From Cyanobacteria bacterium FACHB-63 (GTDB lineage Bacteria; Cyanobacteriota; Cyanobacteriia; Leptolyngbyales; Leptolyngbyaceae), in contig JACJNX010000122.1 in NCBI GenBank assembly GCA_014695255.1, positions 1 through 64,000 of the forward strand: a DNA stretch of 64,000 nt, read 5' to 3'. Below, piece by piece: positions 6,480 through 54,364 of this stretch; the first letter of the stretch is position 1, and every line of letters begins with the position of its first letter. Below the pieces are notes generated by a model, which saw only the letters and a program-made list of their open reading frames with translations, was not told the origin of the DNA and did not search any database. A program made the translations under genes and the position numbers.

Positions 6480-6487
6480 AAAAACCT

Positions 6488-14739: not shown

Positions 14740-14744
14740 GCAAG

Positions 14745-15029: not shown

Positions 15030-15037
15030 GGGGAGCA

Positions 15038-15436: not shown

Positions 15437-15445
15437 GGAGAACGC

Positions 15446-16562: not shown

Positions 16563-16799
16563 GGGGGTGCGATCGAGGTTCTGGGTTAGTGTGCCCAGGG
16601 ATGGAAAATGCGGCAACGGATGGCGGGTGGGTGGAGAGGGAGAGGGAATGGGTGAGGATGGATGAAACGGATGGTCGATCGGTGTGCTCATGGGTTCTCC
16701 TATTCTGGTGCGTCTCTGGCACAGACCAATCACCCATCCGTTTTTCCTTCGTAACAATTTGAATCACAACGCAGACAGACTAATCATCCGTTGGCTCTC

Positions 16800-17848: not shown

Positions 17849-19845
17849 TTACTCCTTCCATCGCATCGGACGATACGCCTCACGCTCCCCGGTCAGACAG
17901 CCAATATACTCCCACACCTGCAACTCAAAACAACGACGGTAATTCACTTTCAGCCCTGAAGTTGGATGCACAATTTGCACCTGTAACCGCTTCTCCCAAT
18001 GCGTCAAAAATCGCTTTAATCCGTCCGGATGCAAATACACTCCACCCCGTTCATCCGGTGGCGTAAAATCCTCTGGCACCAACACTCTCTTATTCACCAA
18101 ATAAGCCACCAACGAATCTACCACCAACGCCCGAAACTCCTCGATCAAATCCGACACCAGCGCCGCATGATTATCGCGAGGAACGTGCAAATTCCCAAAA
18201 TGCGTATGCAGTCCCGACACTTCCACCATCGAATGGAGATTCTGTGACAACAACGTATACCCCAAACTCAACAAACTATTCACCGGATCAGTCGGCGGTC
18301 GCCGCACCCGCTTCGCAAACTCCCACTCCCCCTTCAACAACGACCCAAACGCCGGAAAATACAAACTCGCCCCCTGTCCTTCATATCCCAACAGCCCCTC
18401 CACCGATTCCGCCAACTCCGCCAACGTCATCAACTCCGCCAATGCCGCGATCGCACTCGTCGCCACTTCAGTCTTGCGCCGTCGATTCAGCCGCATCAGC
18501 ATCACCCGCGAATTATGCAACTTCGCCAACACGATCGCTCTTGCCTGCCGCAAAATGAACTCCTGATCAAACGATCGCTGCACCTGATAAATCAAATACT
18601 GCACCTGTGCCTGTCCAGTCGTCTGCAACTGCCCAAAATACTTCCCGTTGCTCGACAAATACAGCACCGGATCTTATGCAACAAACACAGCGACACCGCC
18701 CCATGCGACAAATTCGAGCAACCAAACAACACAATGTGCGTCACCCGATTCACCGGAACACTACACTTGAGTTCATCCCGCAAAAACACCTGAAACTGCT
18801 TATTCTGCACCCGCACATAAGCCCCCAAATCCGTCACATACAGCGTCGTCATCGGTTCCCTCCAATATCCATCTGAAGAACTGCTGCTTGATTTCGGCGA
18901 TCGCACAATGCTGCAAACCTTTGGCGGTCTGCCCCCCGATTTACTCGATTTACGTTTCGATCCCTCAATCGCTTTCGTCGCTCTCTCTGGCGCTTCCACC
19001 TGTCCCGCCGCAAATCGAAACCCCAAAAACGTAAACGCCTCATCCGGTGCAAAAATCTGCGTCTTCTCCGGCTGCAACGTCAAAAAACTCTCCTCCAACC
19101 ACCCCTGCATCAGACCCAACGCCCGATTCGCCCCCACCCAACTCTCCGTCACCACCAAACAATCATCCCCATACCGCACCAACGGCAACCCCACCTCCAG
19201 ACAACGCCTATCAAACTCTCGCAAATACAAATTCGCCAACGCCCCCGACAGCACCCCACCCTGCAACACCCCCTGATTCATCCGCACATACCGCCGCTCA
19301 ATCACCATCCCCGCCTTCAACTGCTGCTCAACCCACCGCACCAAAATCGGCTCAATCCCCAACCGCTCCACCTCCCCCATCAGCACCGCCCAACAAATGC
19401 GATCGAAGAACTGCCGAATATCCGTCTTCAACACCCAAACCGGATGATTTCGATACACCTCCATCACCCGCTCTACCGCCATATAAGTCGAATACCCTGG
19501 ACGATACGCATAAGCCACCGGACTCAGAGCTTGATCCAACTGCGGATAAATCGCCTGAAGCAAATAGCGCTGCAAAATACGATCGCGCACAGTCGAAATC
19601 CCAACCAGCCGCCGCCCACCGCTCTTTTTCGATAGATAAAATCCCTTTGCTGGACTTGCCTGATAAGTCTCGGAGCGCAATTGTTTAAACAGCGATCGCA
19701 TCTGTTCCTCAACCACTCCCGCAAACAAGTCCACCGTCATTCCATCAATTCCAGCCGATGGACTTCTCTGCCGTACCAATTCCCAAGCCACCCACAACTG
19801 CTGCTCCAAAATCCGAAATCGTTCTGGGGTTCGGTCTGCTTTCAT
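17849..19845 (-). pseudogene. Reverse transcriptase-Cas1 fusion with a single-base frameshift
   Basis: The N-terminal part (17% to 70% of the first frame) is a group II intron-like reverse transcriptase: GIDGMTVDLF, FDRICW, QGGVLSGALAN and the catalytic RYGDD. A serine/lysine-rich linker leads to a Cas1 domain starting MTTLYVTDLG. The frame breaks near 18665-18680, where Cas1 continues in another frame (VLYLSSNGKYFG). That second frame retains the Cas1 catalytic Glu (GYEGQGASLYF), His (GNLHVPRDNH) and Asp (LVSDLIEEF). The whole span is 1997 bp, one short of a multiple of three, so restoring one C at the ATCCGG stretch gives 665 codons. RT-Cas1 proteins acquire spacers from RNA. The break is either real inactivation or an assembly error. 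The gene lies beside the array 2 leader. Confidence 0.85.
18858..18863 (-). promoter_or_regulatory. Internal Shine-Dalgarno GGAGGG before the Cas1 part of RT-Cas1
   Basis: Within the RT-Cas1 linker the minus strand reads GGAGGG, five bases before the ATG at 18852 that begins MTTLYVTDLGAYV, exactly where a stand-alone Cas1 would start. This could allow separate translation of the Cas1 domain from the same message. It may instead be chance or an ancestral trace of two joined genes. Confidence 0.5.
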
Positions 19846-19952: not shown

Positions 19953-22900
19953 ATGGCAAGGCGCACTCTCAAGGCATCACAACCCGGCATCGAAAAAGCA
20001 AAACGTGCCCTGAAGCGTCTCGGACTCGTGCAAAAAGATTTGACGATCGATCCTCTGATCGCTTCTTGGGGAACTATCAACAACTTCTTCAACGGTCGTG
20101 CCATTGACCATACCATTTTCAAAGAAATCTGCTTTCATCTCAATCTCGACTGGCAGGATATCTACGAGCCACCCGAAGACGATACGCCACTTCAGAGCGC
20201 AGAGCCAAAAACTCAACCTATCCCTGAATCAACTCAAACCGTCGAAGATGCGCTTCTACTTGCAGTTCAACAGCAATCAAACGCTGCTCGTGAAGCGCTG
20301 ACCCCCAGAATTCTAGAACGCATTCCCCGCGAAGTCGTGCGTAAAAAGTACCTTCCCGCTATCGATCGCGGAGTTAACGGCGAACAACAGCGCATCATTC
20401 CGATCATCGGTGCAGCAGGCTATGGAAAAAGCACAATCTTGGGTGATCTCTACGATGAACTGACTCAAGCTGAAACGCCTTGGGTTGGACTAATCCTATG
20501 CAATGCGCTCTCGATGTCTGCCGCAGTGCGATCGTTCGTCTCTTATTCCGTTGTTGCCTCAACTCTAGTCGGCGTAACTGGGTACAATCCTGCCTCTCCT
20601 TCCTCCTACCAAGCCTCGATCGTCGAGACGGGCTTCGGTCAGAGCTTATGCGGAACCTCTCGCTCCATTCTCGAAGTTACTGAACATCTCAATCGTACCT
20701 ATGGTCGGGTGTTCTGTTGATCGACACCCTGGATTTAGTCATCAGCCGAGACTTCATTTCTGCACTTGTCCCAATCCTAAGACAGCTTTTAGAGCAAGGA
20801 ACAACGGTTGTATTCACCTGCCGAGACCATGAGTACAACGACTACTTAGAGCCAACTCGTGAACGCCTTCCTGGAATTTCTCAAACCCTCGATCGTCATA
20901 CTGTCCCCAACTTCACAACGGCTGAGATCCGCACTGCTGCCGAAGCTTTTTTCCAAAAAATCGATCCTGAGCGCGGACGAACGTTTGCCAATAACATTCT
21001 GTCGCTCTCAGCCGATAATCGTTCACTCAGAGACATCATCGAAAATCCCCTACTCTTAGCCTTACTGTGTGATCTGTTTGCTCAAGAAGGCAATGTTCCG
21101 CCAGATTTAACGGTAAGCAAGCTATACAAACGATATTGGAGTGAGAAAATTGCCTACAGTCGTGCCGATCAGAGTCATTTCAAGCCGTTAGCGATCGAGA
21201 AAGAAAACCTCTGTTTAACGATCGCTCGTGTCTTGTTTGGAATGTCTGAATCCCGATTGTGGGAATGGATTTACCGTGATGAAATCGGAGTGCAATTTAC
21301 TGAGTTTACCACCCAAGCTTATGCAGATTTATTCAGCGAAGGTGTACTCGAAAGTCTTCCTTCCAGCAAAATTCACTTCTTCCACCAAACTTTGTTGGAA
21401 TATGCAATTGCATATTGGCTCACCCGCCACACTGCCGAATCTCAGCGTAACCATTGGCTTGAAACGCTCAAGAATCCTGCGACTCGATCGATTAGTCACT
21501 GGTATCCTGTGTTGCGTCAATATCTCACGATTGTTGAAACCGAGGACGAATTTGAACGACTGGTAGAACAATTAGGAACCAGCCATCTGGGTATCTTTAG
21601 TGCGATTGTTTTCGCTGCTGCAAGTCGCGATCGTCCTGATGCACTCCTCAAACTTTTGCCAACTGCTCTAAAATCTGGTGAATCTTATCAGAAGCGATTG
21701 CAGCAAGCTTTAGAATCTGCACCTCGACAGTTAGCTGAGGAAGTCTGGTCAGTCATGGTGTCACTTCTGGAACAAGGAAGTCATTCGATCGCCGTTAACA
21801 CTGCCCGAACTTTGAATGCTCTTGTAACTCGATGGTGGGATCAATTAGGGTCACGGTTAGCCGATGCGATCGCGTCTGTCGCCCAACGCTCCGAACAATC
21901 CTCAATCAAAGAACGAGCAATCATCTTAGGATGGTTGGTTCAAGACAGTCTAACTCTCCTACAGCAGCACCCCAAGCCAACGCTTCTAAATGCTTTACGG
22001 CGATTTTATCCATTGTTCGGCTCAGGAAGTTGCGTGAAGATTGTTCAACTTCATCTAGAAAGTTCTGTTTCACCTGAAGCTCAGAAAGAACTGTTAACAA
22101 GAATGCTTCAGCAGCCTATTCCGGATAATGTGGAATTAGAGACTATCAGCGCACAGTTTTTGGCTGTGGTCATGGAGCATGAAACCGCGATCGGAAGCGA
22201 CAGAATTTGGTCTTCATGGCGTAAAGCTCTCCATCAGGTACACCCGCAAGGATGGGATGTTGTACAAGCAAAAGCGATCGGACTTTGTGCCGTCAAAAGC
22301 CCTGAAATCATTGCTGTAATTTTGCAAGATCTACTCAATGGTCAGCCTGCTGAACCTCGAAGAAATGCGATCGTCTTATCTGAAGCTGTTCGTCAAGGAG
22401 CCGCTAACCAAGTCGCCCAATCTCTTCTTCAATGTTCATTTGAGCAACTTGAAGCCCGCTATTTCAGTACCATTACAAGCTTCCTTAAAATGCAGGGACA
22501 TCTCTTCTCTGCTAAGGATCAAGAAGCGATCGCCCAAAAACTTAAATCGTTTGCGACCCAGTATCCAGATCGTCTTCGTCCAGTATTCGATACTCTGGCA
22601 GATCAGTCCCTGACAGCGCGTGAATTATTTCGACAATTGGTATCACAACTTTCAGCCGAAAAGCAGGCAGAGTATGAGGGGCGTTTCCTTCGCTTTGTGC
22701 CAATTGATCAACATCCGCCACTAGACACACTCGATAAGCAATCACAGCTATTTTTGCTCAAGCTCTACCGGACTGCTGTTGCAACCTCTCCGAGGGCAGT
22801 CGAGCAAATTCTACAGGTCACACACTCAAAGTATAAAGAAGTTGCGGTTGCAGCTTCCCAGAACTTGTATTCTCTGTTAGGAAAGCAGCTATCTTTGGAC

Positions 22901-23566
22901 ACTGTAATTGCACTCTTACGATCGCGATTTCTGGGAGTACGGGAGAATGCACTCACAGCGATCGCAGAAATGGCGAAGTGCGGTGAAAACCTGAAAGCAG
23001 CGAATCTGACCGAAATGGCGATGGCGCTGAAGAATGAGGATAATCAAGCCATTGTCTGTTCATGGTGTGAAATTGCCGCGAATTGGATACAACAGAATCG
23101 GCAAGTTCCGCCTTATGTTGCGGATGCAGTGGGTGGCGCACTACTTCGTTTAGCTCAGAAAAAAGACTTGGATGGAGGAAGCACTCGGATATTGCTGGCA
23201 GCACTGAAAGCGATCGCTCAAAGTACAGACAATCAAGCCGATGAAACAGTTAACGTTGAAGAGCTAAAAGATTGGGTAATCACCTTACTCATGAGTATTG
23301 ATTTGATTCGCGTCATCAACAGTGAAGCAGAAGTGATTGATTTATTGAGTGCAATTCATCGTTTAGATACAGCGTTTATTGTAAGGTTGGTTGAACATGA
23401 ATGTGCAATATTCTCACAGCGAGGTTGGTTGAAGAACATTATCCCGATTTTGAAGACGATTCGACGAATTGATCAGGCGAGATCGCCGTTATTCGAGCAA
23501 GTTCTTGCAAGTGAGTGGTGTACTTCGGCGATAGAGGGAATGATACTAGAAATTCGAGGAATCTAA
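19953..23566 (+). pseudogene. STAND/NACHT-like ATPase with HTH N-terminus and HEAT-like repeats, split by a frameshift
   Basis: Two frames make one protein. The first (19953-20720) has an HTH-like start (SWGTINNFFNGRAIDHTIF), a linker and Walker A GAAGYGKST at about residue 154. The second (20717-23566) begins at Walker B (LLIDTLDLVI) and continues with the arginine sensor TCRDHEYNDY, a winged-helix region and a long helical-repeat C-terminus. The combined length 3614 bp is one short of a multiple of three. One base added after CGGGTG gives RVxLLIDTLDL and a 1204-residue protein. The alternative is two genes overlapping at TTGA, but an ATPase split between Walker A and B is unlikely to work without reassembly. 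STAND ATPases often act in phage defence. A decayed partial copy lies at 54.6-56.35 kb. Confidence 0.72.
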
Positions 23567-27582: not shown

Positions 27583-29349
27583 TTAGACAAATTCCTCGAA
27601 CTCTTCCTTGTCCGCTTCTGACTTGGATTGTTTCTGCGGCAGTGGAAACAATCGTTCTGCCATTGATTGGCGCACTTGTAGTGCTGCTCGAAGTGAATCC
27701 TGATCGGCGTGATGAGGTGCGACAACTTCGATTAAGCGATCGCGCATCACAGTCCACAGTTCTTCACTTCGTCGTTGAGTCGCTCGATCTTTTTCGGGTA
27801 GACGTACCTTCAGGCGCAGCGGAACTGACGCTTCTCCATGCCCTCGATAAGCAGGATTGATCACGATGCACTCACCTTGGTCAAATTTCACAAAATCTTC
27901 CGCTGAGACTAACGGACACCGTTGATATTGCTCAGAGCGACTTCGGCTGCCATTTCGTCCATAGCTCTGAGACTGACTATAAAATCGAACTTCTTGATCT
28001 CCCAAATAGCGCGAGAATCCCGCCGCTGTTTCGTAGTCGCGTGGATTAAAAATAACTTTGGTTCCGCAGGCAGCAAAGATCGCTTGGGCTAGGTCACGTT
28101 GATAGATGTGCTGAAGTTGTGAGGCGTTCTGATAGCCAAGAATCGGAGCGAAGCCTAGCGATCGGAACTCATTCACCCACTTTGGCAAATCCGGTAGATA
28201 CAGCGTGGGTAATTCGTCGAGCGAAACCACGAGCGGTTCTTTACGAGAACGAGAGAAATTGCGGGTAATCACCAGATGTAGAATTGCAGCCAACAATGGC
28301 ACAATGACATCTCGCTTCTCCAAATCAGCTTGCAAAAATAGCATTTGCTTGCCCTGTAAATCTAGCGAAAAACTTGTCGTCCCGCAAACACTGGAAAGTA
28401 GATCGCGCTTAATGAATGGACTAACAGCGCGGTTAGCAGTTGCGAGAATACCTGCAACAGTTTTTTCGGAATCCGCAGATAGCAGTAATTGTTGGAAACT
28501 CGGTTTCACAAAATCGTCCAGTCGTCCCTCATTGTGAGCCGCTTGAATCCGTGCAGAAAATTGTGAGAGTCCGAGCAAGCTATACGCCATTGCAAGATCT
28601 GGGTAGGGTGTACCTTTCGCCAACAGAAAGACACCTTCTACCACTTGCTCTCCAGCGTCTGCGAAAAATGGATCTTCTTTGACTCCAGAGAAGCGTTGGG
28701 TATTGCGATTGATGGTGACTGCAAGCTGACGAGCCATCAACGCATCACCATCGTTTGCGATAAAGTCGAGCGGGTTAATCACACTGCTGTAGGCTTGACC
28801 AGGAGCGAAAACGTGAACGATGTAGCCTCTTGATGCAGCATAGGCTGCGTGAGCTTCGAGTTGTGAGCCTTTGTAGTCGTAGCACACGATCGGTAGCCCT
28901 TGCTCGATCGCAGAACGAATCGCGGGATCAATGATCGAGAAGGTCTTTCCGCTATTCGGCGCACCACAAACGATCGTGCCTTGCTGTGCGTGGGGTAGGT
29001 AGAGCGTGGGCATTGTGTCAAGCAACAAGGGTTTTGTTTGCGCCCACAAATTCTGAACTGTTGGAGTGCCAGACCAGAGCGTGACTTGATTGGATTTACG
29101 ATCGCGCAATTGTTTCTGGGCTTCTCGCACCGCTGCCCATTTCTCCCACCGTCCGCCGAATCGTCCTTGTGCGATTTTGCCTTTCTTTTGTTTGCCGAAT
29201 ACTGACATGAAGACGACAAAGACGAATCCGATCAACAGCATGACTCCTACTTCAGAACGCAGGAGGTTCAGCATCGTGTGACCCAGACTATTCAAGGGTT
29301 GCTGCGCGGCTTGAGTGAATTGTCTGCTCTGATTGGATGCTGCACTCAT
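27583..29349 (-). CDS. virD4: Type IV secretion coupling protein (VirD4/TraG family)
   Basis: This ATPase brings the relaxase-DNA complex to the transfer channel. A hydrophobic N-terminal helix (about 33-50, VGVMLLIGFVFVVFMSVFG) precedes Walker A CGAPNSGKTFS at about 126-135 and the typical QGLPIVCYDYKGSQLE. Walker B is LVVSLDELPTLYLPDL near 377, and a TraG-like FAACGTKVIFNPRD lies at about 430. Only one membrane helix is seen where VirD4 often has two. I start at ATG 29349, which overlaps the upstream stop (ATGA), indicating coupled translation. The C-terminus is acidic. Confidence 0.85.
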   Translation of the reverse strand: MSAASNQSRQFTQAAQQPLNSLGHTMLNLLRSEVGVMLLIGFVFVVFMSVFGKQKKGKIAQGRFGGRWEKWAAVREAQKQLRDRKSNQVTLWSGTPTVQNLWAQTKPLLLDTMPTLYLPHAQQGTIVCGAPNSGKTFSIIDPAIRSAIEQGLPIVCYDYKGSQLEAHAAYAASRGYIVHVFAPGQAYSSVINPLDFIANDGDALMARQLAVTINRNTQRFSGVKEDPFFADAGEQVVEGVFLLAKGTPYPDLAMAYSLLGLSQFSARIQAAHNEGRLDDFVKPSFQQLLLSADSEKTVAGILATANRAVSPFIKRDLLSSVCGTTSFSLDLQGKQMLFLQADLEKRDVIVPLLAAILHLVITRNFSRSRKEPLVVSLDELPTLYLPDLPKWVNEFRSLGFAPILGYQNASQLQHIYQRDLAQAIFAACGTKVIFNPRDYETAAGFSRYLGDQEVRFYSQSQSYGRNGSRSRSEQYQRCPLVSAEDFVKFDQGECIVINPAYRGHGEASVPLRLKVRLPEKDRATQRRSEELWTVMRDRLIEVVAPHHADQDSLRAALQVRQSMAERLFPLPQKQSKSEADKEEFEEFV

Positions 29350-29903
29350 GGCTTTTGAACCTCCGCATCCACAAATCGATACTGTTGTCCGTCGTAGCAC
29401 CACCGCACGACTTCAATCTGATTGCGCTTTAAGTCTCGCTGATTAAATTTCAAACAGGGTAAGCCGTTTTGTAAAGTCGCGGTTGGTTCAATCAATGGTT
29501 TCCCTTGCGGGGGATTGGGATTAAGATAAACGGCTAAAACTCGCTTGTATCGATCGTTAGTTTGAATATAACCTTCAAATTCGCAGCCAGCTTTGCCACA
29601 TCTCGGATTAAGATGTGTTCGATTTGGTTCAAGCGCAACACGACTATCAATTAGATATAGTGCTTTTTCTTGTCCAGATCGGCGAATCTTAAGGACTCGC
29701 ATTCTACCGACATCTACAGGCACTCCAGATTGCTGATAGCCCTGCTGAAGCTGGGTCTGTAACTTAGGTATGGATGATTGTGAGAGATACGTCCATTTCA
29801 AATCGCCCTGAGCGATCGCGGAGGAAGTGCAAGCGATCGCAAGCTGGCTCACCAGAAACACGAGGATCAGCAACACATAGGATCTCAAAGAGTGTTTTGC
29901 CAT
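29346..29903 (-). CDS. Exported protein of the transfer operon
   Basis: From ATG 29903 (site GGAG) the product has a signal sequence SYVLLILVFLVSQLAIACTSSAIAQG, ending either in a lipobox-like LAIAC or in a SAIA-Q signal-peptidase site. The mature part is beta-rich with two cysteines in NPRCGKAGCEFEGY and two near the C-terminus (PCLKF, RWCYD), plausible disulphides in the periplasm. No named family. Its stop overlaps the coupling-protein start. Confidence 0.55.
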   Translation of the reverse strand: MAKHSLRSYVLLILVFLVSQLAIACTSSAIAQGDLKWTYLSQSSIPKLQTQLQQGYQQSGVPVDVGRMRVLKIRRSGQEKALYLIDSRVALEPNRTHLNPRCGKAGCEFEGYIQTNDRYKRVLAVYLNPNPPQGKPLIEPTATLQNGLPCLKFNQRDLKRNQIEVVRWCYDGQQYRFVDAEVQKP

Positions 29904-43415: not shown

Positions 43416-46400
43416 TCATCGTTCAAGGGCTGATTCATTTTGAGATGGAAGCTCCCGTGCCTGTTGACGAAGACGATTCGCTTCCTGACTGAAGCGCTGT
43501 AGGTCTTTTCTTGTGATTAGGGGCATTTCAGAGTTTTGCGCTAGCTTCGCTCTACAAAGTGTTCGCTGATCTAACAATGATTGCCCTGCTTTTTCTACGG
43601 TCAGTTTTTGCGATTGGCAATAATATCGCAGCGTGTAATCTGCCACTTGCGATCGATACTGATAAATCGGTTGCTCATCTACTGTTGCAAATTGCCCTTT
43701 GTATTTGATGATCGTTTTTGCATCTTTAGCAAACTGATCAACCAGTGTCTGATAGTTGTTCGCGTCGATTTTCATATATGCGGTCGCACTATCTGACAAC
43801 TTCACATCCGAGTTGCGAATCGCATCATCGCTCAGGGATTCTGGCGTTTTCGCTTTGAAATCTTCAGCAAGTGCCTGAATTCGATCGAGATAGGGCTGGC
43901 TTCGCCCTGTTTCTCGTGCATAGAAATACCAGCGTCTGAAATCTAGCAAGCAAGGAATAGATGAATCTGCTCCGGTTTGATCGGAGGATAAGTTTGGCTG
44001 AGACTGACTCACACTCTGCGCTACAACACCCTGTGAAACGATTTCTTTCTGTTTGTCTACTTTTTCAGCGGGAAATTGCCATCCATCCTCTCTTGCCCAT
44101 GCACCGAGCGTTCCAAGAGTTACTCCTCCGCTCTCGTGAAATCGATTCCAAATATACTCACACTCTCCAGGCTTGTACTTCGTGCTTTGGGCACTCCAAC
44201 GATCCCATTCCGTCAAAAGCGTTAAATCGGCACTGTGTAACGCCATTCCAACTTTGAGCCACGTTTCACGATCGTCTGCCCGTTCAGGATGCAATGCCGC
44301 CAAATAGCTCATCGCCCAATCCCGATCGCTCCACTGAGCGTGATGTTTAGAAGGTGTGTAAACAGTGGGTTCATGAGTTTGAGCAGGTTGAACGATCATT
44401 TGCTCGATCATCCAGTTTGGCGCGATCGCTATTTCTGTTCGGTCAGGCGCGTTCAACCACTGGTACTGTCCAGTTGTCGGGTGAACCGAAGGCGGCAGCA
44501 CTGAGAGTAACCCTTGCCAGCGAAATTCAACCAGTTCTCCCTTCCCATCATCACCTTTGATTCCGGTTGGAAACTTTCGACTCTTAATCTGTGACCAAAC
44601 TTCTTGTGGAACTTGGAAGAGATGTTGAGATCGCCCTGGTCTACCCGATGTAAACGAAACGGTTTCAGGCAACGTTAATCCGCCAGACAATTCGAGAAGT
44701 TTTGCTTGAGCCGATGCGCCATCAAGGTCGATCGCGACAATTCCACCCGACACTGTACCCAGTCGAAGCGCGTATCCTTTTGCACCTTGCGCGATCGCGT
44801 CAATCAGTTCTGTTGCCGATAGGGGTGGCTCTGTCTGCCAGCCAGCACGATACGGCGCTTTGTGGTCATCCACAGGGGTCAGTGCCCAAGTTGGCGGAAT
44901 CTGATTTAATCCGTTGATGAGGCTTTGCTGGAGCAAGCTTGCATCAGCGTGAACAGTCTCAAGTATTTCTGTTGCTGTCGGTGTATCTTCAGCAAGATTT
45001 GAAACAACCTCAACTGATTCAGTGTTCCACGTTGGATCAAGAGTTGCGGTGTCGGATTGGGCAAAGTCAACGGTGTCGAAGAGGCGACCCTGCTCCATTT
45101 CTTCGTCGTTCTGTGATGCTGATTGCTCATGATGGTTTGCAATGTTTTCAAGGGTTGTTGATTCGGTTGCGGTGATTGAGATTGCTGGCAAATTGAGGAT
45201 TATAGCTGGAGGTTGTGGGCGCTCTACTTTTTGCATTTGTGGCAAGACGATTCCCAGCATTTCTCGCGCTTTGTGTCGCTGCTCAAACGCCAGCAATCTC
45301 AAACTTTTCTCATACAGATACGTCACCACAGTTTCAATCCGCTCTGGTGAAACGGTGAGCGTCATTGCATCACCTGTAGAGACAAATTCACCATCAGCCG
45401 CTGTCATCAGTTCTTTGTTCAGGAAATACTCACCGCCCTCAGCTCTGGAGCGTGGTGTTTGAAGAACAATGCCATCCCCTTGCCGTTTGCGCTGCGCCTT
45501 CAGAATCAATCCCTTGTCTGGGGTTTTGAGTTGCCCTTTACGATCGCTCCCTTCAAACAGGAACTGAATTGCTTCCTGCGGGGATGGCATCACGACAGGT
45601 TCACTTTCTAGGACTTCCTCGATATCGAAATCATCTGGTGTCAAAACACCTTGGCAAAACTCACCCTGCTCGGTTGTGTAGTTAATCAGCTTGCCGTTAA
45701 ACTTCTCCATCGCTCGCAGCACATTTCCAGTGAAAATCTGCCGTTCCTGACGATTCTTCGTTTGGCGCTGATCAAACAGTTCATAAACAGGGGTATCAAA
45801 TAGGTCTTTGGATTGCCGACTGACAAAGATGGCGTTACCACCACTCAGATTGATTTGCGACAGAGGCAGCGTTAGCTCTTTAGCAGCGTCAGCCAGAAGA
45901 AACTGCTTTTTCCAATTGGCTGGAGCCGTAGGATTGCCCGTACCATCGATTTGCCAAATTCTCGCAGATACTGCATAGAATGCACTGTTCTTTGCCGTGA
46001 CAATTCGGACTGGAGTTCCCGGTGGATAGAGATCCAGCATTTGGCTGACATGAGTCAATTGTCGATCGAGCCGAGTATTGAATTTCTCGATCGCATGAGC
46101 CGCTTTTAATCGAGTGGGCGTATCTTCAGAAGCCAGTTTTTGCTCAAACTGACTTTCGTGCTGCTGGCGATACGTTTCGACGGTTTGCCGTAATGCCTGG
46201 ATTTGAGCTTGAGCGCGGTTCGATGCGATCGCTTGAATGTTCTCCTGAATCGCCTCTAAATCATGCGTCTGCTGTTCGTTGAGTTCAGCTAAGTTTAATT
46301 CTCGATGCACTATGTTGATCACTTCTAATGTGGTCAACGGTTTTCGTAGTGTTTTGACATCAACGACTTCTAGATAGACCGGACTGGTGAATCGGCTCGG

Positions 46401-49400
46401 TAACTCTGCATCTGCTTCGATCACTTCCATGCGCCCGATGATTCGAGCATCGAGATCCAGAGATTGCGCTTCGAGAATCGATTCCCCGATCGACTCTTGC
46501 CGCTCGACAAATTCGGCGTATTCCCGTTCGATGCGATCGTACAAAGCTTCTTGTTGGGCGATCGGCAATAGTGGAATCCGCCCCGTCACCTTACGAATTG
46601 CGGCTTCTGGTTCATCGCCTTCATCTAGGAATTTGAGCGGTGTTCCCAGTCGCGCATGAAGGTCTGGCTGGCTCAGCATGATTTCACTTACGACCGCATC
46701 CCCATACTCATTCATGAAGTCGGGCACATTGTTTAATGTAATTTCGCTTGATCGTGCCGCAGTAGTATTTGCATTGAGCGATGCCATTTTCTTTGCTAAC
46801 ACCGCACCCGGTCGTTTCTCGGCTGGAATGTCTGCACAAAGCAGCGTATAGCTTGGCGGTACAACCTGACCATAGCGATGAATCCGCCCCAACATCTGCA
46901 TGAAGTCATCGATATTGCGTTCCGCCTGCGCGATGATCATGTGACGTGGACGCTGATCCACAAACGTTTCCGACGCATGAAGCGAAATTCCGGTCGAACC
47001 CGCTTGGTTGAGAATCATTACATCGATATCGCCCCGATTAAAGGCGCGAACATTCTCGATCGAGGCTCTCGTGCTGCGGTCAGCGGGAGAGCGCACTTGA
47101 TAATATTGTCCGCCTTCTAAGGTGTACTCGATTTGATGTTCTCGTCCGGTGACCTCACTCACCCGATATCCAGCCGCTTGCAGTCGAGATTCTATGTAGT
47201 CGATCGGAGAAATCGGTAAGCTAGAGAAATCCGTTTCTGCAATCATCGCTAAGGTTTCTTCGTAAGCCTCGATGCCGTCAACATCCAACTCTTCATCGGT
47301 GAGCCGATAGCAAGGTTGTCCATCGCTACGGGTGGCATTGAACTGTCGATTGCCGTAAGCATCTTTGAGAATAATTTCACGCGATCGTTCCAGGTATCGC
47401 GCCAACATTGCCCCGAAATCAAGATCAAGCGCATCACCAACCTGAATCCCTTGAGCGGCAGCATAGTTGCCAATGAACGAACCCATCGTATTGGCAACAG
47501 TAATGACAGGTTTTTCTCCTTGACCCAACAGGGAGAGCGATCGTTCAACCGTTGCCGCCGCCTTCAGTGAGAGCAACATCTGATCAATCAAGTTGTGCAT
47601 AATCGAGGCAAACTCGATGCTTTTGGCTCCAGCTTCTCCGGTTGAGATATCCAGCTTCAGAGCTTTGGCTTCGCGTTTCAGTTGCTTGTTCATGTCCTTG
47701 ACCGCAAGCTGCTTGATGCGATCGAATTCCATAATCCGACTCATAATCGCTGCCACTTGTTCGGCAATGTCACGATCGACCGGAACCACATCAGCAACGA
47801 AGCTGATTCCCTCATACGATCGTTCTCGTCGGATATACTGCCCTTCTTCGGTCAGCATCGTGGCAAGGGCTTGCTGTCCCGGAACGCCCATTTTCTGAAT
47901 CAGAGAAACGAGTGTTTCCATGTGCCCCACCGCCAATCGCATATTTGTTTTGCGATAAAGGGTCATGACTTCGGGATTCTTGGCGTATGTTGCACTGGAA
48001 TAAAGAACGCCTTGAGCTTGGTCGATTAGTTCACGGGTAAAGTCAGCGCGATTCGCAACTTTACTGGGCTGATTGTTCATCGAGCCACCCGCCATGTGGC
48101 TCTCGTCGAGCAATAAGATTGAATTTGGGGCGAATCGACGTAGCAGCGATCGTCGTTCCGGTTCTTTGTCGTTAATCGCTTGAAATTGATAATACGTGCT
48201 GAAGATCCCGTCATAGCTGCCGAGATTCCCAGATTGTGTCAGCGCTCGGATTTCCTGTTGATGAGTGTTGCCACCGGTGCGAAGTTGTCCGCCGTTTGGC
48301 AGTGGAACTCGGATATTTTCATTCGTCACAAAGGGCTTGAAGTCTCGAAAGTCGATATCTGCGAGATCTCGCATCATATCGGCATAGAGATCTGGTTTCT
48401 TGGTGACAAAGATGGGCATCTTACCGGATAGCTTGGCATAGCGGATGAGGCTTGCCACCACCCGACCTTTCCCCACTCCGGTTTGATCACCCAGAATGAA
48501 GCCAGAGCCTTGCTCGATGTTGTGAATGGCAAGCGCGATCGCATCGACTTGTTCAGCCGTGAAATAGCGGTGTAGCTCTTCGGTGTTGGAATACACTAAC
48601 TTCTGAGCAACATAATCGTCGATCGATCCGACTTGTTCAGCAAGGTGTTTGAGTGCGTTCGAGGCTGCCGTTTGCATATTGACAGGCAAGAGTGTTCCAG
48701 CCCGATTGCCTGTACTGTGCGGCGTATACGGTACTTGTTTTAGCGATGATTCAGCCATAATCCGATTCTCCTGATCGAGTGTGTCAATCGGTGCTAGTCC
48801 TCGGTCGGTTGATAGGTCATGCTTTGCAGCCATAGTTCTAGAGGAGTCTGCTGAATGATTTCCAATGCTTGTGGAGAGTTGAGAGTTGGTAGGGGGAAAT
48901 CCCACTCGCAGCGAATCGTCATTCGCAATCGCAGCTCTGAATTGTCGATCGTGATCGCTTGCGCCCAGTCTTGGGGTTCGTCCTCTGGATCGGGCAGATT
49001 CCAAATCTGATGATCCATGCGTCCCTCTGCGAGATAGCGATGAATCATGCGGCAAGCTTGTTTGCGGTCTGGCTCCTGCTGAATCATCCATTCCACGCGG
49101 CGGGAGAGCAATTCGAGATAGTTGTCCCAAGTCGCGATTTCGCTCTGATTCGCGGGAACGAGAACGGTTGCCAGCACGGGGGATAAAGCTTGATCGGTGG
49201 GAGGAGTCCAAAGTTGTTGACTGTTGAAGTAAAGCGTCATAAAGCACCTCTTTGAGTGAGTGAAATGAGTCGTAAATGTTGGGAACATCTGCGGCAGGCA
49301 GGTCGCGTTCAGATTTGCCTTGCCCGTTGATCACAATGAGATCGATCGGAAAGTTAGCGCCCTGTTTTCGGTAAAGATGACCGTCGATCGAGATGTGTTG

Positions 49401-50189
49401 AGTTACGCGGTAGTGGTTGTAGAGCGTGTAATAGAAAGCTCGACTTTCGCGGGAATGATAGCGATTCGATCTGCGGTCTTCGTCGTTTGTCAGTTTGCCA
49501 CCAAGAATTAGAACCGCTTTGCCATCGGGCTTCATGGCTTTAAGGGCGTGAAGTGCGATCGCATGATCGATCTGTGTGGTTATGTATGCACCTGTTTGAA
49601 ATCGTTTGAGTTTTCCATTCTCCAGAATCGAATTGAAGGGTGGATTGAGAATAACGACATCCTGTAATTGCTCCGGTAGATACAGCGTTGCATCTTGGGT
49701 CGTGACTCGATAGCCCTGACGTTGTAGATCACTAGCGCGATCTGGATTGAGTTCATTAACAGTGGCGTTCTCAGGATTGGCGGCTAAGAGAAGTGCCCCA
49801 TTTCCCGCAGTCGGCTCATAGACCGTTGTTTCTGAGTCGATGCCTGCTAGGGTTGATGCAAGAAGTGCGATCGGTAATGGTGTGCTGTAAGCTTGCTGTA
49901 ATACGCTGGTCGAAGTTCGTGTTCCAAGTCTCGGTTGACGTTCATAAAGCTCCACCAGTTGGTCATAAGCTTGCAATGGTGCAGCCGCTTGTACAATGCC
50001 TTTCGCAACTCGAACTAAACTACGCTCAATACACTCCTCGATCCATTTCGCGTCAGCCGTCCCTGATAAAATCGGTTGCTGCAACACTTGTGCTGCAAAT
50101 TGTCGCGCTTCGACGATCGTAGTAAATCCTTGTCCTGCTCGGAAGCGATCGTAAAATGCTCGAATTAATCTTTCTTCTGAGTCTGCCAT
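43416..50189 (-). CDS. Giant N6-methylase / strawberry-notch helicase / primase-polymerase frame
   Basis: A single open frame of about 2257 codons. Residues 1-300 are an N6-adenine methyltransferase (EPTAGNGALL at 126-135, NPPF at 183-186). Residues about 330-470 are a Ser/Arg-rich stretch read opposite a better-looking nested gene. From ATG 48758 (residue 478, with AGGAG 8 bases before) comes a superfamily 2 helicase: GDQTGVGKG near 570, DESH near 697, and the strawberry-notch C-terminal half with GSTGISLHAS and MLGRIHRYGQ. The last third holds a primase-polymerase (VAIDLDG, FRWQGLLSVLPPS) and a PriCT-2-like helical domain. Size and first two parts recall phage P1 DarB, an antirestriction protein; the primase is extra. 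The frame could be one polyprotein or two genes whose stop was lost. Confidence 0.78.
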   Translation of the reverse strand: MADSEERLIRAFYDRFRAGQGFTTIVEARQFAAQVLQQPILSGTADAKWIEECIERSLVRVAKGIVQAAAPLQAYDQLVELYERQPRLGTRTSTSVLQQAYSTPLPIALLASTLAGIDSETTVYEPTAGNGALLLAANPENATVNELNPDRASDLQRQGYRVTTQDATLYLPEQLQDVVILNPPFNSILENGKLKRFQTGAYITTQIDHAIALHALKAMKPDGKAVLILGGKLTNDEDRRSNRYHSRESRAFYYTLYNHYRVTQHISIDGHLYRKQGANFPIDLIVINGQGKSERDLPAADVPNIYDSFHSLKEVLYDALLQQSTTLDSSHRSSFIPRAGNRSRSRESERNRDLGQLSRIALPPRGMDDSAGARPQTSLPHDSSLSRRGTHGSSDLESARSRGRTPRLGASDHDRQFRAAIANDDSLRVGFPPTNSQLSTSIGNHSADSSRTMAAKHDLSTDRGLAPIDTLDQENRIMAESSLKQVPYTPHSTGNRAGTLLPVNMQTAASNALKHLAEQVGSIDDYVAQKLVYSNTEELHRYFTAEQVDAIALAIHNIEQGSGFILGDQTGVGKGRVVASLIRYAKLSGKMPIFVTKKPDLYADMMRDLADIDFRDFKPFVTNENIRVPLPNGGQLRTGGNTHQQEIRALTQSGNLGSYDGIFSTYYQFQAINDKEPERRSLLRRFAPNSILLLDESHMAGGSMNNQPSKVANRADFTRELIDQAQGVLYSSATYAKNPEVMTLYRKTNMRLAVGHMETLVSLIQKMGVPGQQALATMLTEEGQYIRRERSYEGISFVADVVPVDRDIAEQVAAIMSRIMEFDRIKQLAVKDMNKQLKREAKALKLDISTGEAGAKSIEFASIMHNLIDQMLLSLKAAATVERSLSLLGQGEKPVITVANTMGSFIGNYAAAQGIQVGDALDLDFGAMLARYLERSREIILKDAYGNRQFNATRSDGQPCYRLTDEELDVDGIEAYEETLAMIAETDFSSLPISPIDYIESRLQAAGYRVSEVTGREHQIEYTLEGGQYYQVRSPADRSTRASIENVRAFNRGDIDVMILNQAGSTGISLHASETFVDQRPRHMIIAQAERNIDDFMQMLGRIHRYGQVVPPSYTLLCADIPAEKRPGAVLAKKMASLNANTTAARSSEITLNNVPDFMNEYGDAVVSEIMLSQPDLHARLGTPLKFLDEGDEPEAAIRKVTGRIPLLPIAQQEALYDRIEREYAEFVERQESIGESILEAQSLDLDARIIGRMEVIEADAELPSRFTSPVYLEVVDVKTLRKPLTTLEVINIVHRELNLAELNEQQTHDLEAIQENIQAIASNRAQAQIQALRQTVETYRQQHESQFEQKLASEDTPTRLKAAHAIEKFNTRLDRQLTHVSQMLDLYPPGTPVRIVTAKNSAFYAVSARIWQIDGTGNPTAPANWKKQFLLADAAKELTLPLSQINLSGGNAIFVSRQSKDLFDTPVYELFDQRQTKNRQERQIFTGNVLRAMEKFNGKLINYTTEQGEFCQGVLTPDDFDIEEVLESEPVVMPSPQEAIQFLFEGSDRKGQLKTPDKGLILKAQRKRQGDGIVLQTPRSRAEGGEYFLNKELMTAADGEFVSTGDAMTLTVSPERIETVVTYLYEKSLRLLAFEQRHKAREMLGIVLPQMQKVERPQPPAIILNLPAISITATESTTLENIANHHEQSASQNDEEMEQGRLFDTVDFAQSDTATLDPTWNTESVEVVSNLAEDTPTATEILETVHADASLLQQSLINGLNQIPPTWALTPVDDHKAPYRAGWQTEPPLSATELIDAIAQGAKGYALRLGTVSGGIVAIDLDGASAQAKLLELSGGLTLPETVSFTSGRPGRSQHLFQVPQEVWSQIKSRKFPTGIKGDDGKGELVEFRWQGLLSVLPPSVHPTTGQYQWLNAPDRTEIAIAPNWMIEQMIVQPAQTHEPTVYTPSKHHAQWSDRDWAMSYLAALHPERADDRETWLKVGMALHSADLTLLTEWDRWSAQSTKYKPGECEYIWNRFHESGGVTLGTLGAWAREDGWQFPAEKVDKQKEIVSQGVVAQSVSQSQPNLSSDQTGADSSIPCLLDFRRWYFYARETGRSQPYLDRIQALAEDFKAKTPESLSDDAIRNSDVKLSDSATAYMKIDANNYQTLVDQFAKDAKTIIKYKGQFATVDEQPIYQYRSQVADYTLRYYCQSQKLTVEKAGQSLLDQRTLCRAKLAQNSEMPLITRKDLQRFSQEANRLRQQARELPSQNESALER
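48794..49240 (-). CDS. Nested gene inside the methylase-helicase frame
   Basis: Read in another frame of the same strand, this 148-residue product looks like a folded protein: LYFNSQQLWTPPTDQAL, YLELLSRRVEWMIQQEPDRK and WDFPLPTLNSPQALEIIQQ. The giant frame over the same bases is Ser/Arg-rich and disordered, like a shadow. A GAGGTG ribosome site lies 5 bases before ATG 49240. It ends 35 bp before the internal helicase start at 48758. The simplest reading is an original order methylase - this gene - helicase/primase. I do not know the family. Confidence 0.55.
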   Translation of the reverse strand: MTLYFNSQQLWTPPTDQALSPVLATVLVPANQSEIATWDNYLELLSRRVEWMIQQEPDRKQACRMIHRYLAEGRMDHQIWNLPDPEDEPQDWAQAITIDNSELRLRMTIRCEWDFPLPTLNSPQALEIIQQTPLELWLQSMTYQPTED

Positions 50190-50231
50190 CACAACCTCCA
50201 GAGATTGCGGGAGGTGAATGGTAGATGCCCC

Positions 50232-50684
50232 TTATCGAATTACGTCCCCAAAATCACCCAGCATTGCTTCATCCACATCGGTGTCAATTCCTGTGAAAAA
50301 TTGAGCTTCAAGTTCATCAGCATCCATTGGCTCAGGAATCTTCGTTGCTTCAGTAGTAAGCTCTTTTGATGAAGATACGGGTACTGAAAGCGATCGTGGA
50401 GCTTCAATACCAAAGGATTCTCGAATCAGTTGAATCTGATCTTCAAGGTGGCGAATTGATTGTTGAGCAATTTCGCGTAATTCCGCTTCAGAATGCTTTG
50501 CTTTACTTCGACACGCGAAGGGAAGCCAAAATGCTTTGACTGCCAGACCAACTTTTGACTTGCCATCAAAGGCTGTGTGGATAATCCACTCAAAGACCAT
50601 GCCATGTGCAGTATTGCCGCGTGGCTCAAAGGTGAAGCGCACTCGTTTTTCTTCGGCTGGTTTAGGCTTCGCGGGTCTTGCCAT
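50232..50684 (-). CDS. ParM-partner candidate (ParR-like role), paralogue of 24865-25317
   Basis: I start at ATG 50684, preceded by GAGGAG; its ribosome site overlaps the end of the actin-like gene, so the pair is co-translated. The first 95 residues (KRVRFTFEPRGNTAHGMVFEW, AFWLPFACRSKAKHSEAELREIAQQSI) match the paralogue in the transfer operon. The C-terminus is acidic. In ParM systems the second gene encodes the centromere-binding adaptor ParR. That role is inferred from position and the upstream repeats, and no ribbon-helix-helix motif is obvious. Confidence 0.5.
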   Translation of the reverse strand: MARPAKPKPAEEKRVRFTFEPRGNTAHGMVFEWIIHTAFDGKSKVGLAVKAFWLPFACRSKAKHSEAELREIAQQSIRHLEDQIQLIRESFGIEAPRSLSVPVSSSKELTTEATKIPEPMDADELEAQFFTGIDTDVDEAMLGDFGDVIR

Positions 50685-50694
50685 CACTGTCTCC

Positions 50695-51783
50695 TCATGC
50701 ATTCACTTGCCGACTCATTGCCCAAGTTGCAGCAAAAACGGCATACACATCTGCTAATCGTAACGGTAATCGATTTTGATCCGGAAACCCAGAATCCTTC
50801 TCCAACACCGTCGAGATCTGCTGCTGAATAGAGTCAGCGAAACTGACTCGCTCAGACAATTCCATTTGCCGCAATAGCTCCACCAATTCTGTACGAATTG
50901 GCGCGATCGCACCCCCAGCAACAATGATTTCATAATCACCACCTGGAAGATGATTTTCTAGATAGCTCTTGACTTGCTTCCAATAGGATTCTCGCGCTGT
51001 CGCATTGATCGATTCCATATCCAACGGAGTCAATTGCCCTGCGACTCGCAGTTGAGACAAGTTTTGAGCGATCGTTTCCATCAGATACGGTGTCGATGCT
51101 GATAATCCTTTGAGGGATGCAGCGACTTCAACAGCATTGAGAAAACCAGGACCATCGCTGCGAGATTGATTTTGCAAAACCCCATTTTTGAATACGAGAA
51201 TACTCAAATTGCGATGCCCAAACATCACAACTGCGATCGTTCGAGTGCGAGGGTCAATCTTCTGGGCTGCAAGTTCACCTCGTCGTGTGAGGAACAATCC
51301 AAACCCTTCAGGAAAAATCTGAAGTTTCTCAAACGCGATCGACAACTTCTCGCCCCGGAAAACAAACGTTTGAGCAGCTTCATACAAGGCCTGTTGTAAC
51401 ATTCGTCGATCATTGAATTCAGTAATCGGCAACGTCACCGCAAGATTAGCCGTGATAGAGCTTGAGAATTCTAGCTTGAATTGCATCGCACCCAGCATTG
51501 CCAGGATTTTGTGAATGGCACGACGTTCCTTGCGTTCCATCAGTCCAGCATCACCCGAAAAGTTTTGAGCAAACTGCCCAACAGCCGTAGTCTCTTCTCC
51601 AATTTGCACCCAGGCTACCTGATTGGGTTCCGCATCACGATTGAAATTGTGCATTTTCGCCAGTAATTCGGGTTGTACCCAAGCAACTTCAGGAGCCATC
51701 AGCAAGGGGTGAGGAGCGCCTTGATTGAGGTAGAAACTTTTGGTCAATGAACTGCCGAGATCGATCGCTGCAACTAGCATCAT
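50695..51783 (-). CDS. parM: ParM/StbA-like actin-family plasmid segregation protein
   Basis: Actin-fold signatures are visible: phosphate-1 loop AAIDLGSSLTKSFYL near residue 5, the thiamine TLPITEFNDRRML segment near 115, phosphate-2-like VVMFGHRNLSILVF near 195 and an adenosine loop EIIVAGGAIAP near 285. Such ATPases polymerise to push plasmid copies apart. The two adjacent ATGs at 51783 and 51780 share a GGAGACAG site. Phased GGCTGAAT repeats lie 60-110 bp upstream and could be the centromere or operator. Family boundaries among plasmid actin-like proteins are loose, so the parM symbol is approximate. Confidence 0.72.
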   Translation of the reverse strand: MMLVAAIDLGSSLTKSFYLNQGAPHPLLMAPEVAWVQPELLAKMHNFNRDAEPNQVAWVQIGEETTAVGQFAQNFSGDAGLMERKERRAIHKILAMLGAMQFKLEFSSSITANLAVTLPITEFNDRRMLQQALYEAAQTFVFRGEKLSIAFEKLQIFPEGFGLFLTRRGELAAQKIDPRTRTIAVVMFGHRNLSILVFKNGVLQNQSRSDGPGFLNAVEVAASLKGLSASTPYLMETIAQNLSQLRVAGQLTPLDMESINATARESYWKQVKSYLENHLPGGDYEIIVAGGAIAPIRTELVELLRQMELSERVSFADSIQQQISTVLEKDSGFPDQNRLPLRLADVYAVFAATWAMSRQVNA

Positions 51784-52636: not shown

Positions 52637-54364
52637 ATGCTTGCCAAAATTACCAAAGGTCGAGAGTTCTACCGCTGTCTTTCCTACGTTCTAAACAAGT
52701 CAGGTGCAGAAATTTTAGAGAGCAATATGGTGGGAAAGACTGCCTCAGAACTTGCGATCGAATTTCAACTCAGCCAGCAACAGCACCAGCGCCAACCCAG
52801 TCCGCGTAAAACTCAAAAAATTGTTTGCCATGTTAGTTTGAGCGTGGAAATTGGCAAAAACTTAGATTCAGAAACTTGGATCGCGCTCGCGAAAGATTAT
52901 CTCGACGCAATGAGCTTTGATCAAAATCAGTACGCTCTAGCACGTCACACCGATACTGAGCATGATCATGTCCATCTCGTCATTTCACGGCTTCGCATCG
53001 ATGGTTCAACTGTCCCAGATTGGCTAGATTATCGGCGAACTGAGACTATTTTGAGAACGCTTGAGGAAAAATATCAGTTGCAAGCGGTGCAATCTAGTTG
53101 GGAAACGACGATTAAGCCACCGACTGTTGCAGAAATTCGCCAGTTTCGTCGAACTCAGCAACCGAGTGTGAGAACTATCTTGCAGGTTGCGCTCGATGAC
53201 GCTGCTGAGGGCAATCCATCTTTTGAGGTTTTCAGTGACCGTTTGAGAAACATGGACGTTTCGTTCCGTCTACGCCTCACTCCAGATGGAGTCAGAGGAA
53301 TCTCCTACAAGTTTCATACGATCGCGTTTCCTGGCTACAAGTTAGGCAAGCGCTACACCTGGCAAGGATTACAAACTTATTTTGGAGTGCAATATGAATC
53401 AACCCATGCGCCAACGAGCCAAGAAGATTTTACAAGAAGCGACTTTACAACCAGAGCAGGAGACTATGAGTTCGATCACACTTTTGCAGTCACTAATAAG
53501 CCAACTCGAACAATTAGAACATCTGGAATTTCAAACCAGTCAGTTACCGAACAAACTCAAACATCTTCAAGCGCTAGTCAAAGCCGTCGAAAAGCTAACA
53601 CCAGAAGCACAACTCCAGTCGCAAATCGAGGAGTTTCAGGTGCGATCGCAAGCTCAACTAGAGAATCTAAATCAGGAGTTGACCAATCTACGTCAACTTT
53701 CCGAGGAGGGGATTACTCAGATGAACAACTCCTCGAAGATTTTGGAGGATACAGCGATCTTGGTCGCAGAGCTGATCAGGGGCTTACAGACAATCAGCGA
53801 CAACCTGCCACAACTCATCGAGCAGGTGAGTGCTCAGACCGAACAGCAGCAGAAGCAGTTGGATGCGATCGCGAAAACAGTCAGCCAACTGCGTCAACCC
53901 GTCCCAATCAAACCCAATGCGATGCAGATTTGCGGACTGCTAGCACTTTACAGCCTCTCGACCGCTTGCAGCGTAATCCTGATGATCCGATTCGGACTGC
54001 CTCAGATCAATTCACAAGAGATCGCACCCCATCCTCAACTGAATCAAAAGAGCCACAAGTAGCAAGTCATGAAAACGATGACGCTGATATTCTCTGGCAG
54101 CTTTACAGTAAGAATGTACAGACGAAGAATCCTGTAGAGAAGGATCTGGGCGTGGCTTGGAAGGCACTTCAGGATGGATGCAATCGTTCCAAAGTTGCAA
54201 GCATTTTGTGGAAAAGCCCTTACGTAAGATGGCTATGGGAGACTCAAGGAAGTGCCAGCAGTCAAAGCTATGTGAATTTGACAATCAGGGCTGTTAGTGC
54301 ATCCGAGAAACGATCAAGGGCTGAAAGACCTACTCGACAAAAGCAAAATCAGGAAGTTCTGTAG
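52637..54364 (+). CDS. mobA: MobA-like relaxase (MOBP type)
   Basis: The relaxase nicks the origin of transfer and stays bound to the transferred strand. The N-terminus LAKITKGREFYRCLSYVLN and the three-histidine motif HTDTEHDHVHLVISRL (about residue 96-111) identify the relaxase fold (PF03432). The catalytic Tyr is probably in the first 20 residues. From about residue 250 to 475 the frame is low-complexity, with a second gene nested there, and a conserved-looking end follows (ILWQLYSKNVQTKNPVEKDLG, SKVASILWKSPYVRW). Confidence 0.82.
   Translation: MLAKITKGREFYRCLSYVLNKSGAEILESNMVGKTASELAIEFQLSQQQHQRQPSPRKTQKIVCHVSLSVEIGKNLDSETWIALAKDYLDAMSFDQNQYALARHTDTEHDHVHLVISRLRIDGSTVPDWLDYRRTETILRTLEEKYQLQAVQSSWETTIKPPTVAEIRQFRRTQQPSVRTILQVALDDAAEGNPSFEVFSDRLRNMDVSFRLRLTPDGVRGISYKFHTIAFPGYKLGKRYTWQGLQTYFGVQYESTHAPTSQEDFTRSDFTTRAGDYEFDHTFAVTNKPTRTIRTSGISNQSVTEQTQTSSSASQSRRKANTRSTTPVANRGVSGAIASSTRESKSGVDQSTSTFRGGDYSDEQLLEDFGGYSDLGRRADQGLTDNQRQPATTHRAGECSDRTAAEAVGCDRENSQPTASTRPNQTQCDADLRTASTLQPLDRLQRNPDDPIRTASDQFTRDRTPSSTESKEPQVASHENDDADILWQLYSKNVQTKNPVEKDLGVAWKALQDGCNRSKVASILWKSPYVRWLWETQGSASSQSYVNLTIRAVSASEKRSRAERPTRQKQNQEVL
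53394..54062 (+). CDS. mobB: MobB-like coiled-coil membrane protein nested in the relaxase gene
   Basis: This frame runs inside mobA in the +1-type frame. It starts at ATG 53394 with GGAG 6 bases before. The 222 residues form long coiled-coil helices (QLEQLEHLEFQTSQLPNKLKHLQ, QSQIEEFQVRSQAQLENLNQELTNLRQ) and end in a membrane helix (MQICGLLALYSLSTACSVILMI). In RSF1010 the mobB gene also lies inside mobA and its product is a membrane-linked helper of transfer. The composition is far more protein-like than that of mobA over the same bases. Confidence 0.72.
   Translation: MNQPMRQRAKKILQEATLQPEQETMSSITLLQSLISQLEQLEHLEFQTSQLPNKLKHLQALVKAVEKLTPEAQLQSQIEEFQVRSQAQLENLNQELTNLRQLSEEGITQMNNSSKILEDTAILVAELIRGLQTISDNLPQLIEQVSAQTEQQQKQLDAIAKTVSQLRQPVPIKPNAMQICGLLALYSLSTACSVILMIRFGLPQINSQEIAPHPQLNQKSHK

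Follow-up and report, generated by a model that had tools for sequence, protein, structure and literature searches.

The long frame P0001 and its setting

The window, which means here the whole analysed stretch of 64,000 nucleotides, lies on contig C27 in a genome of 7.2 Mb. This genome is taken to be cyanobacterial because one of its own class (G058) has, at identical coordinates, the plasmid match of Picosynechococcus PCC 7117. On its minus strand it holds an uninterrupted frame of 2258 aa (P0001, 43416-50192), stop-free throughout, with GTG as start codon and ATG as second codon. A first-pass annotation had read a methylase, a strawberry-notch helicase and a primase-polymerase in one open frame, its strand unstated, and the Pfam domain search bore this out. 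The N-terminal part (residues 1-330, 49203-50192) contains an adenine methylase with NPPF at 183, and N6_Mtase was matched at residues 175-230 with E 3.5e-4 and 20.4 bits, which is exactly the Pfam cut-off. Both halves of the helicase were of the strawberry-notch type and well above the cut-off, namely AAA_34 in the N-terminal half (residues 561-807, 47772-48512, E 4.7e-21) and Helicase_C_4 in the C-terminal half (residues 1010-1233, 46494-47165, E 1.5e-26). They are followed by a conserved region that has no Pfam match (residues 1300-1660, 45213-46295) and forms the end of a chassis common to the relatives. The added PrimPol and PriCT-like parts were recovered as well, as Prim-Pol PF09250 (residues 1769-1927, 44412-44888, E 6.2e-26, over the cut-off) and PriCT_2 (residues 1962-2033, 44094-44309, E 1.7e-22). 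A C-terminal tail module of about 50 residues (43764-43952) is common to relatives with other cargo. LPD36, which with its GXGU motif is an N-terminal domain of the DarB-like class, was absent from the Pfam matches of P0001 up to E 1. A search of PDB sequences up to E 0.01 yielded nothing related to P0001, and chance rows only for the PrimPol part.

The translation displays the strings NPPF (183), GVGKG (572), DESH (696) and GRIHR (1102) in the methylase and helicase parts, and DLDG (1822), SGRPGR (1849) and EFRW (1889) in the primase part, all of which we take to be functional motifs. The acidic residues of the PrimPol part, presumably the catalytic ones, were well kept across 31 aligned matches, some of them duplicates: D1822 and D1824 in 30 each and E1889 in 28.

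Just upstream of P0001, on the same strand, a 156-aa protein is encoded (50232-50702), with no NCBIfam match and one weak PHROG match (E 0.0034), and then an actin-like protein (50695-51783) with ALP_N and a distant NCBIfam match to FcmB. The window also contains a MobA/VirD2-type relaxase (52637-54364, plus strand) and a TrwB/VirD4-type coupling protein (27583-29403, minus strand). P0001 therefore sits on a mobile element with conjugation genes, in line with the plasmid setting that had been proposed for it. Elsewhere in the window (4251-19845), type III CRISPR genes were found, including RAMP proteins, a Cas10-like palm domain, a Card1-like CARF protein and a reverse transcriptase-Cas1 fusion (18592-19845). 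They are adjoined by a frame of 949 aa (20717-23566) that had no Pfam match at E 0.01.

The own genome holds at least four copies or remnants of the chassis, on contigs C27, C148, C31 and C134. The C148 copy includes a PrimPol, over which its frame is open too, and it shares 67% identity with C27 in the PrimPol and 78% in the helicase. Its frame begins inside the methylase (L005 553-1763), beside transposase genes that appear IS630-like by eye, and it probably lacks an intact methylase. The C31 copy showed no primase match and two tails, while C134 is a 3.8-kb contig with a chassis end and a Toprim primase. When C27 and C148 were compared, the uncorrected pN and pS values were 0.14 and 0.71 for the helicase, 0.21 and 0.73 for PrimPol and 0.18 and 0.91 for PriCT_2; the ratio for PrimPol is as would be expected under purifying selection. 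The linker between methylase and helicase was unlike the other parts, with a pN of 0.37 and a pS of 0.31 (also uncorrected). This led to a check of its reading frames, and from there to the nested gene described below.

Chassis, cargo and tail

A tblastn search with P0001 matched 789 plasmid and 44 phage records, none of which covered 80% of the query. In the best plasmid rows the match ended near residue 1650-1670, which argues for a chassis that spans residues 1 to about 1660 and for a remainder that is exchangeable cargo. The chassis part was also found in 59 loci of bacterial genomes and in 113 viral contigs, the best 80 of which were retained as viral relatives. Methylase, helicase and third chassis segment were present together in one frame in 52 of the 61 homologous frames that have the third segment. 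Relatives with separate methylase and helicase genes, named beforehand as an observation that would speak against the fusion, do exist remotely, but they have no bearing on the P0001 frame. In the Persicobacter plasmid pPP10 (L250 2902-7778), methylase and strawberry-notch helicase are two genes with a 4-base overlap and no match to the nested profile, and one Leptolyngbya locus (L075) has methylase and helicase split between overlapping frames. A Thalassospira plasmid carries a frame of 6162 codons (L010 2130-20615) with the methylase-helicase chassis in its interior.

The cargo was evaluated by Pfam in 52 of 62 C-termini, which include four cut ones and a duplicate (L066 of L009); those omitted were L011 (very long), L093 (very short) and eight cut by contig ends. 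DUF6908 was found in 37, MutS_I in 17, DUF3991 in 15, Toprim_2 in 14 and Prim-Pol in 2, both of the latter belonging to the window's own genome (contigs C27 and C148). When the best candidates of each of 386 genomes of the window's phylum were scored, 7 genomes had the chassis and 29 had PrimPol relatives, with the chassis-PrimPol fusion in the own genome only. Among the relatives examined, a fused PrimPol was found only in the two copies of the own genome. An unfused counterpart of P0001 was found in Nodosilinea nodulosa PCC 7104, where a separate Prim-Pol frame with the same tail lies downstream of the chassis gene. It follows that gene directly at one locus (L057, Prim-Pol frame 16303-18252), and at the other (L058, Prim-Pol frame 17868-19808) a MutS_I-tail frame intervenes. 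The presence of two unrelated primase folds on one chassis, together with a PrimPol that is a neighbour when unfused, argues that chassis and primase act together.

Of the 45 cyanobacterial chassis frames whose end is complete, 35 had the tail, regardless of cargo, and in 2 of the 10 remaining ones it was carried by the next frame. It was found in none of the 80 viral loci, the best of the 113. The tail also occurs on some proteins of neighbouring genes and on proteins of 1.1-2.4 kaa in other genomes of the phylum (L221-L233), and a Pfam scan of five of these (L221, L225, L226, L229 and L230) gave no clear domain. At another locus (L235 3398-10765), a TrwC relaxase of 2456 aa combines a helicase, DUF3854 and a DUF3991/Toprim_2 primase with the same tail. 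The idea of a universal transfer tag is unsupported, as the tail was not found on the window's own relaxase. Since it is also missing on 2 of 6 plasmid records, a role of the tail in transfer, or in recruitment, is a guess.

The nested frame in the methylase-helicase linker

The nested gene occupies positions 48794-49240 of the minus strand, in the +1 frame of the linker, where it would encode a protein of 148 aa. Its ATG is preceded by the Shine-Dalgarno-like sequence AAAGAGGTGCTTT. The +1 frame of the window's linker is open over 178 codons, and in most homologous linkers over about 100-230 codons, with mostly 20-80 for the third frame. In a codon-permutation test of this openness, p < 0.05 was reached in 49 of 125 linkers and p < 0.01 in 12; openness by itself is weak evidence for a nested gene.

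The translation of this frame recurs widely. The 143 linker rows yielded 126 distinct +1 segments that are 60 codons long or longer. By phmmer, the window's nested copy matched 47 of the 143 rows, itself, duplicates and viral rows included. A profile built from the +1 frame of nine cyanobacterial seeds, not iterated, matched 90 of the 126 distinct linkers and 40 of the 63 viral ones, while the main-frame profile from the same seeds and spans matched 7 and 0, respectively. After iteration, which is partly circular, the nested profile matched 113 of the 126 linkers, from bacterial and viral contigs (55 of the 63 viral), leaving 13 without a match, and it gave zero matches to decoys made of the third frame, the main frame and reversed sequences.

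Selection was evaluated in pairs of homologues. Homologues are not independent, though no sequence entered more than one pair. The analysis covered the 30 most similar of 42 independent pairs and obtained values for 27. The median main-frame pS was 0.12 in the linker against 0.56 in the helicase. The linker was lower in 26 of the 27 pairs, with L089/L163 as the sole pair lacking a synonymous drop. Identity was higher in the +1 frame than in the main frame in 26 of the 27 as well, the exception being L057/L058. For the nested frame, the medians over the 27 pairs were 0.12 (pN) and 0.33 (pS), indicating purifying selection. Sliding pS profiles of five pairs displayed a dip over the nested frame in four, and the linker of the fifth was outside the range covered. 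The viral pair L130 and L133 has another region in which main-frame pS is low (0.31-0.37); it lies away from the nested gene, at codons 670-792 of L130.

The start of the frame is conserved. Among 105 resolved homologues, an ATG was found at most 5 codons from the start of the nested profile in 93, with a start choice that preferred ATG. The chosen start had a Shine-Dalgarno core in 74 (24% for random positions), and any nearby ATG behind such a core was present in 98, compared with 31% for matched positions within that region and 20% for matched ATGs of the +1 frame in other parts of the gene.

The window's nested protein is acidic (net charge -12), with a predicted helical fold. In 76 aligned homologues of 126-175 aa, the pI was below 6 in all (median 4.46), the mean net charge was -10.5 and the hydrophobic content was ordinary. 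AlphaFold2 predicted a confident fold for the nested protein (pLDDT 90.3, pTM 0.86), while the control, for which the same 65 codon spans were read in the main frame, reached a pLDDT of 55.9 and a pTM of 0.14. Fold comparison gave best values of E 1.8 (Foldseek, PDB), E 0.55 (Foldseek, BFVD) and Z 2.0 (VIA), which cannot show that a fold is new; the modelled fold is perhaps one not yet seen. Sequence searches gave no convincing relative either. Pfam yielded a best single row of E 0.004 for the 76 proteins and no family with hits from more than 2 of them, PDB sequences a best E of 0.048, PHROGs no match for the 2 members searched, and INPHARED nothing for one viral copy.

The main frame over the nested gene is a predicted disordered spacer. 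About 57% of the main-frame linker consists of G, S, R, A and P, W and C stand at 0.0%, and the composition changes abruptly. This odd composition at 48.8-49.2 kb, where the first-pass annotation had allowed for a sequencing error, is attributed to the second gene in the +1 frame, which had been missed.

When 386 genomes were searched with the nested profile and the best candidates of each were scored, all 10 strong matches were inside chassis genes, in the same 7 genomes that had the chassis, with no standalone nested gene among them; two weak rows had values of 0.002 and 0.008. The nested gene occurs in contigs of cyanobacteria and Desulfovibrio and in many from uncultivated viruses. Plasmid pAQ6 of Picosynechococcus PCC 7002, a widely used laboratory strain, also has it (L263 3692-4198). 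Gloeobacter pGMOR1 was the only record among those examined in which the frame is annotated, as a hypothetical protein (L007 8941-9390). There, the start of the methylase-helicase gene was placed downstream of the nested frame, though its own frame is open from 7926. The gene tables that PLSDB gives for the PCC 7002, PCC 7117 and Chroococcidiopsis records do not list the nested frame, but tables of PLSDB are incomplete. A literature search in open-licence PMC papers for a nested gene in genes of this type gave none among the matches listed. The nested gene is almost certainly a real, selected coding frame, which would be expressed as a small protein.

Interpretation and comparison with known systems

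By its architecture, P0001 is assigned to the DarB-like methylase-helicase polyvalent proteins. According to the consulted part of Iyer et al. 2017 (PMC5512222), these proteins occur in phages and conjugative elements and fuse an NPP(Y/F) adenine methylase to a SWI2/SNF2 ATPase, along with various other domains of disparate kinds. P0001 resembles them in having an NPPF methylase followed by a C-terminal SNF2/strawberry-notch ATPase, on a mobile element. It differs in that PrimPol follows the methylase-helicase, in a cyanobacterial element. In the same part of that paper, the only polyvalent proteins reported to contain PrimPol come from Tn1549-like elements of Firmicutes and Fusobacteria, and on that account the domain order of P0001 is a new variant; a second gene in the linker is not mentioned there (PMC5512222). 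The methylase-helicase-PrimPol-PriCT_2 fusion is real and of modest novelty, a new domain order of a known class.

The likeness to phage P1 DarB that had been pointed out holds for the class, and close kinship was not supported. P1 DarB is a virion-borne anti-restriction protein, in the portion of PMC9024508 consulted. According to the record annotation it also joins methylase and helicase in one protein, of 2255 aa compared with 2258 aa for P0001, but at E 1e-3 phmmer matched none of its frames to the window's methylase or helicase segments. The nested profile had no match in eight other DarB-like records, P1 included (L010, L247-L253). A nested gene in P1 darB was considered and rejected: a +1 run of 177 codons exists there, but 50 codons precede its first ATG, the encoded sequence looks Arg/Ser/Thr-rich by eye, no synonymous dip was seen against D6, and D6 has no matching run. 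The ND6 plasmid of P. putida (L252) has a +1 run of 186 codons over the linker, also with no match to the nested profile. P1 further has Ulx, a 17 kDa protein that is listed, in the same portion of PMC9024508, as aiding the localisation of DarB. Ulx is likewise a small protein tied to a DarB gene, but it is encoded by a separate neighbouring gene, whereas the window's small protein is nested. A relationship between the two was rejected for lack of profile similarity (hhalign probability 0.2%). As far as the consulted accounts go, overprinted genes of bacteria and viruses generally share with the nested gene that a second protein lies in an alternative frame of an older gene; the nested gene differs in its place within a predicted disordered linker and in its occurrence in cyanobacterial, Desulfovibrio and viral contigs.

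It has been proposed, in the consulted part of PMC5512222, that the methylase-ATPase shields entering DNA and that polyvalent primases prime transferred single strands. The earlier suggestion that the primase could work on single strands as they enter agrees with that proposal, and it fits the two unrelated primases found on one chassis. Primases transferred by conjugative plasmids include TraC1 of RP4 and SogL of R64, as stated in the same part of the paper (PMC5512222). They are comparable to P0001 in that their primase could in principle act on incoming single-stranded DNA, as proposed here. They differ in being Toprim primases, whereas that of P0001 is a PrimPol, although some relatives of P0001 carry Toprim. 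To our knowledge, TraC1 and SogL are not joined to a methylase.

The locus is probably best explained as encoding two proteins, a DarB-like entry protein and an overprinted, acidic, helical partner. P0001 would most likely be carried into the recipient cell, or made early there. Its methylase-translocase part would protect the entering DNA against restriction and its PrimPol would prime the complementary strand, in an order of reactions that we infer, while the tail may have a recruitment function. The nested protein would be initiated at the internal ATG behind the Shine-Dalgarno-like sequence, on the same mRNA as P0001, and would most likely serve the big protein as its partner or chaperone. 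That its role is tied to the entry protein seems reasonably likely.

Several other explanations concern the frames themselves. An artefact of sequencing or assembly that joined two or three genes into the long frame would account for the abrupt composition change in the linker, but this is a negligible prospect given the second PrimPol-bearing copy on C148 and the 52 of 61 homologous frames that keep the three chassis parts together. The low synonymous rate of the linker could instead reflect a DNA or RNA element, such as a transfer origin, an RNA structure or a regulatory site, and no second protein; synonymous depression alone cannot separate coding from non-coding constraint. Such an element is nevertheless very improbable, because the +1 translation is conserved as a protein, with the identity and the pN and pS values given above, is recognised by one profile across bacterial and viral contigs, begins at a start with a ribosome-binding site and has a confident predicted fold that the main frame lacks. 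The +1 frame could also be read by programmed frameshifting, giving a methylase-nested domain product instead of or besides the long protein, and in many homologues it does open upstream of the nested ATG. Frameshifting needs neither an ATG nor a Shine-Dalgarno core, so that the conserved start (93 and 98 of 105 homologues, the latter against 20-31% in the controls) counts against it and makes it unlikely.

Other explanations concern function. P0001 could be the plasmid's own primase-helicase for vegetative replication, with anti-restriction and delivery uninvolved. This would suit the phage primases that match its PrimPol part and the adjoining actin-like gene, of a kind used in partition, but we regard it as fairly doubtful, since a primase domain was present in a minority of the chassis relatives (Toprim_2 in 14 and Prim-Pol in 2 of 52) and 37 carried DUF6908, which is no known primase. 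The conserved core is accordingly the methylase-helicase. The main rival for the nested protein is an independent anti-defence factor, for example a DNA mimic that inhibits restriction enzymes. Its consistent acidity would suit such a factor, as would the location of all 10 strong matches inside a gene of anti-restriction type. The fold comparison, with the Foldseek values stated above, gave no match to a known mimic, which decides little either way. Acidity is common among partner proteins and chaperones too. An independent anti-defence factor is a possibility of some weight, though on the unlikely side, and the partner or chaperone role is favoured.

The nested gene is the more surprising result, compared with the fusion. 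There is a fair likelihood that many DarB-type genes of plasmids and phages are two-protein genes, in which an old overprinted frame in the linker encodes an acidic helical chaperone, regulator or anti-defence factor that works or travels together with the entry protein. If so, a recurrent class of plasmid and phage genes for entry and anti-restriction would hold a second gene that annotation skips, and whose frame can accompany a misplaced start of the big gene, as in Gloeobacter. The modular tail and the exchange of Toprim and PrimPol on one chassis would give a concrete handle on delivery with conjugating DNA. The nested gene itself would then be an overlooked component of entry systems, a widely shared overprinted gene with a role that can be tested.
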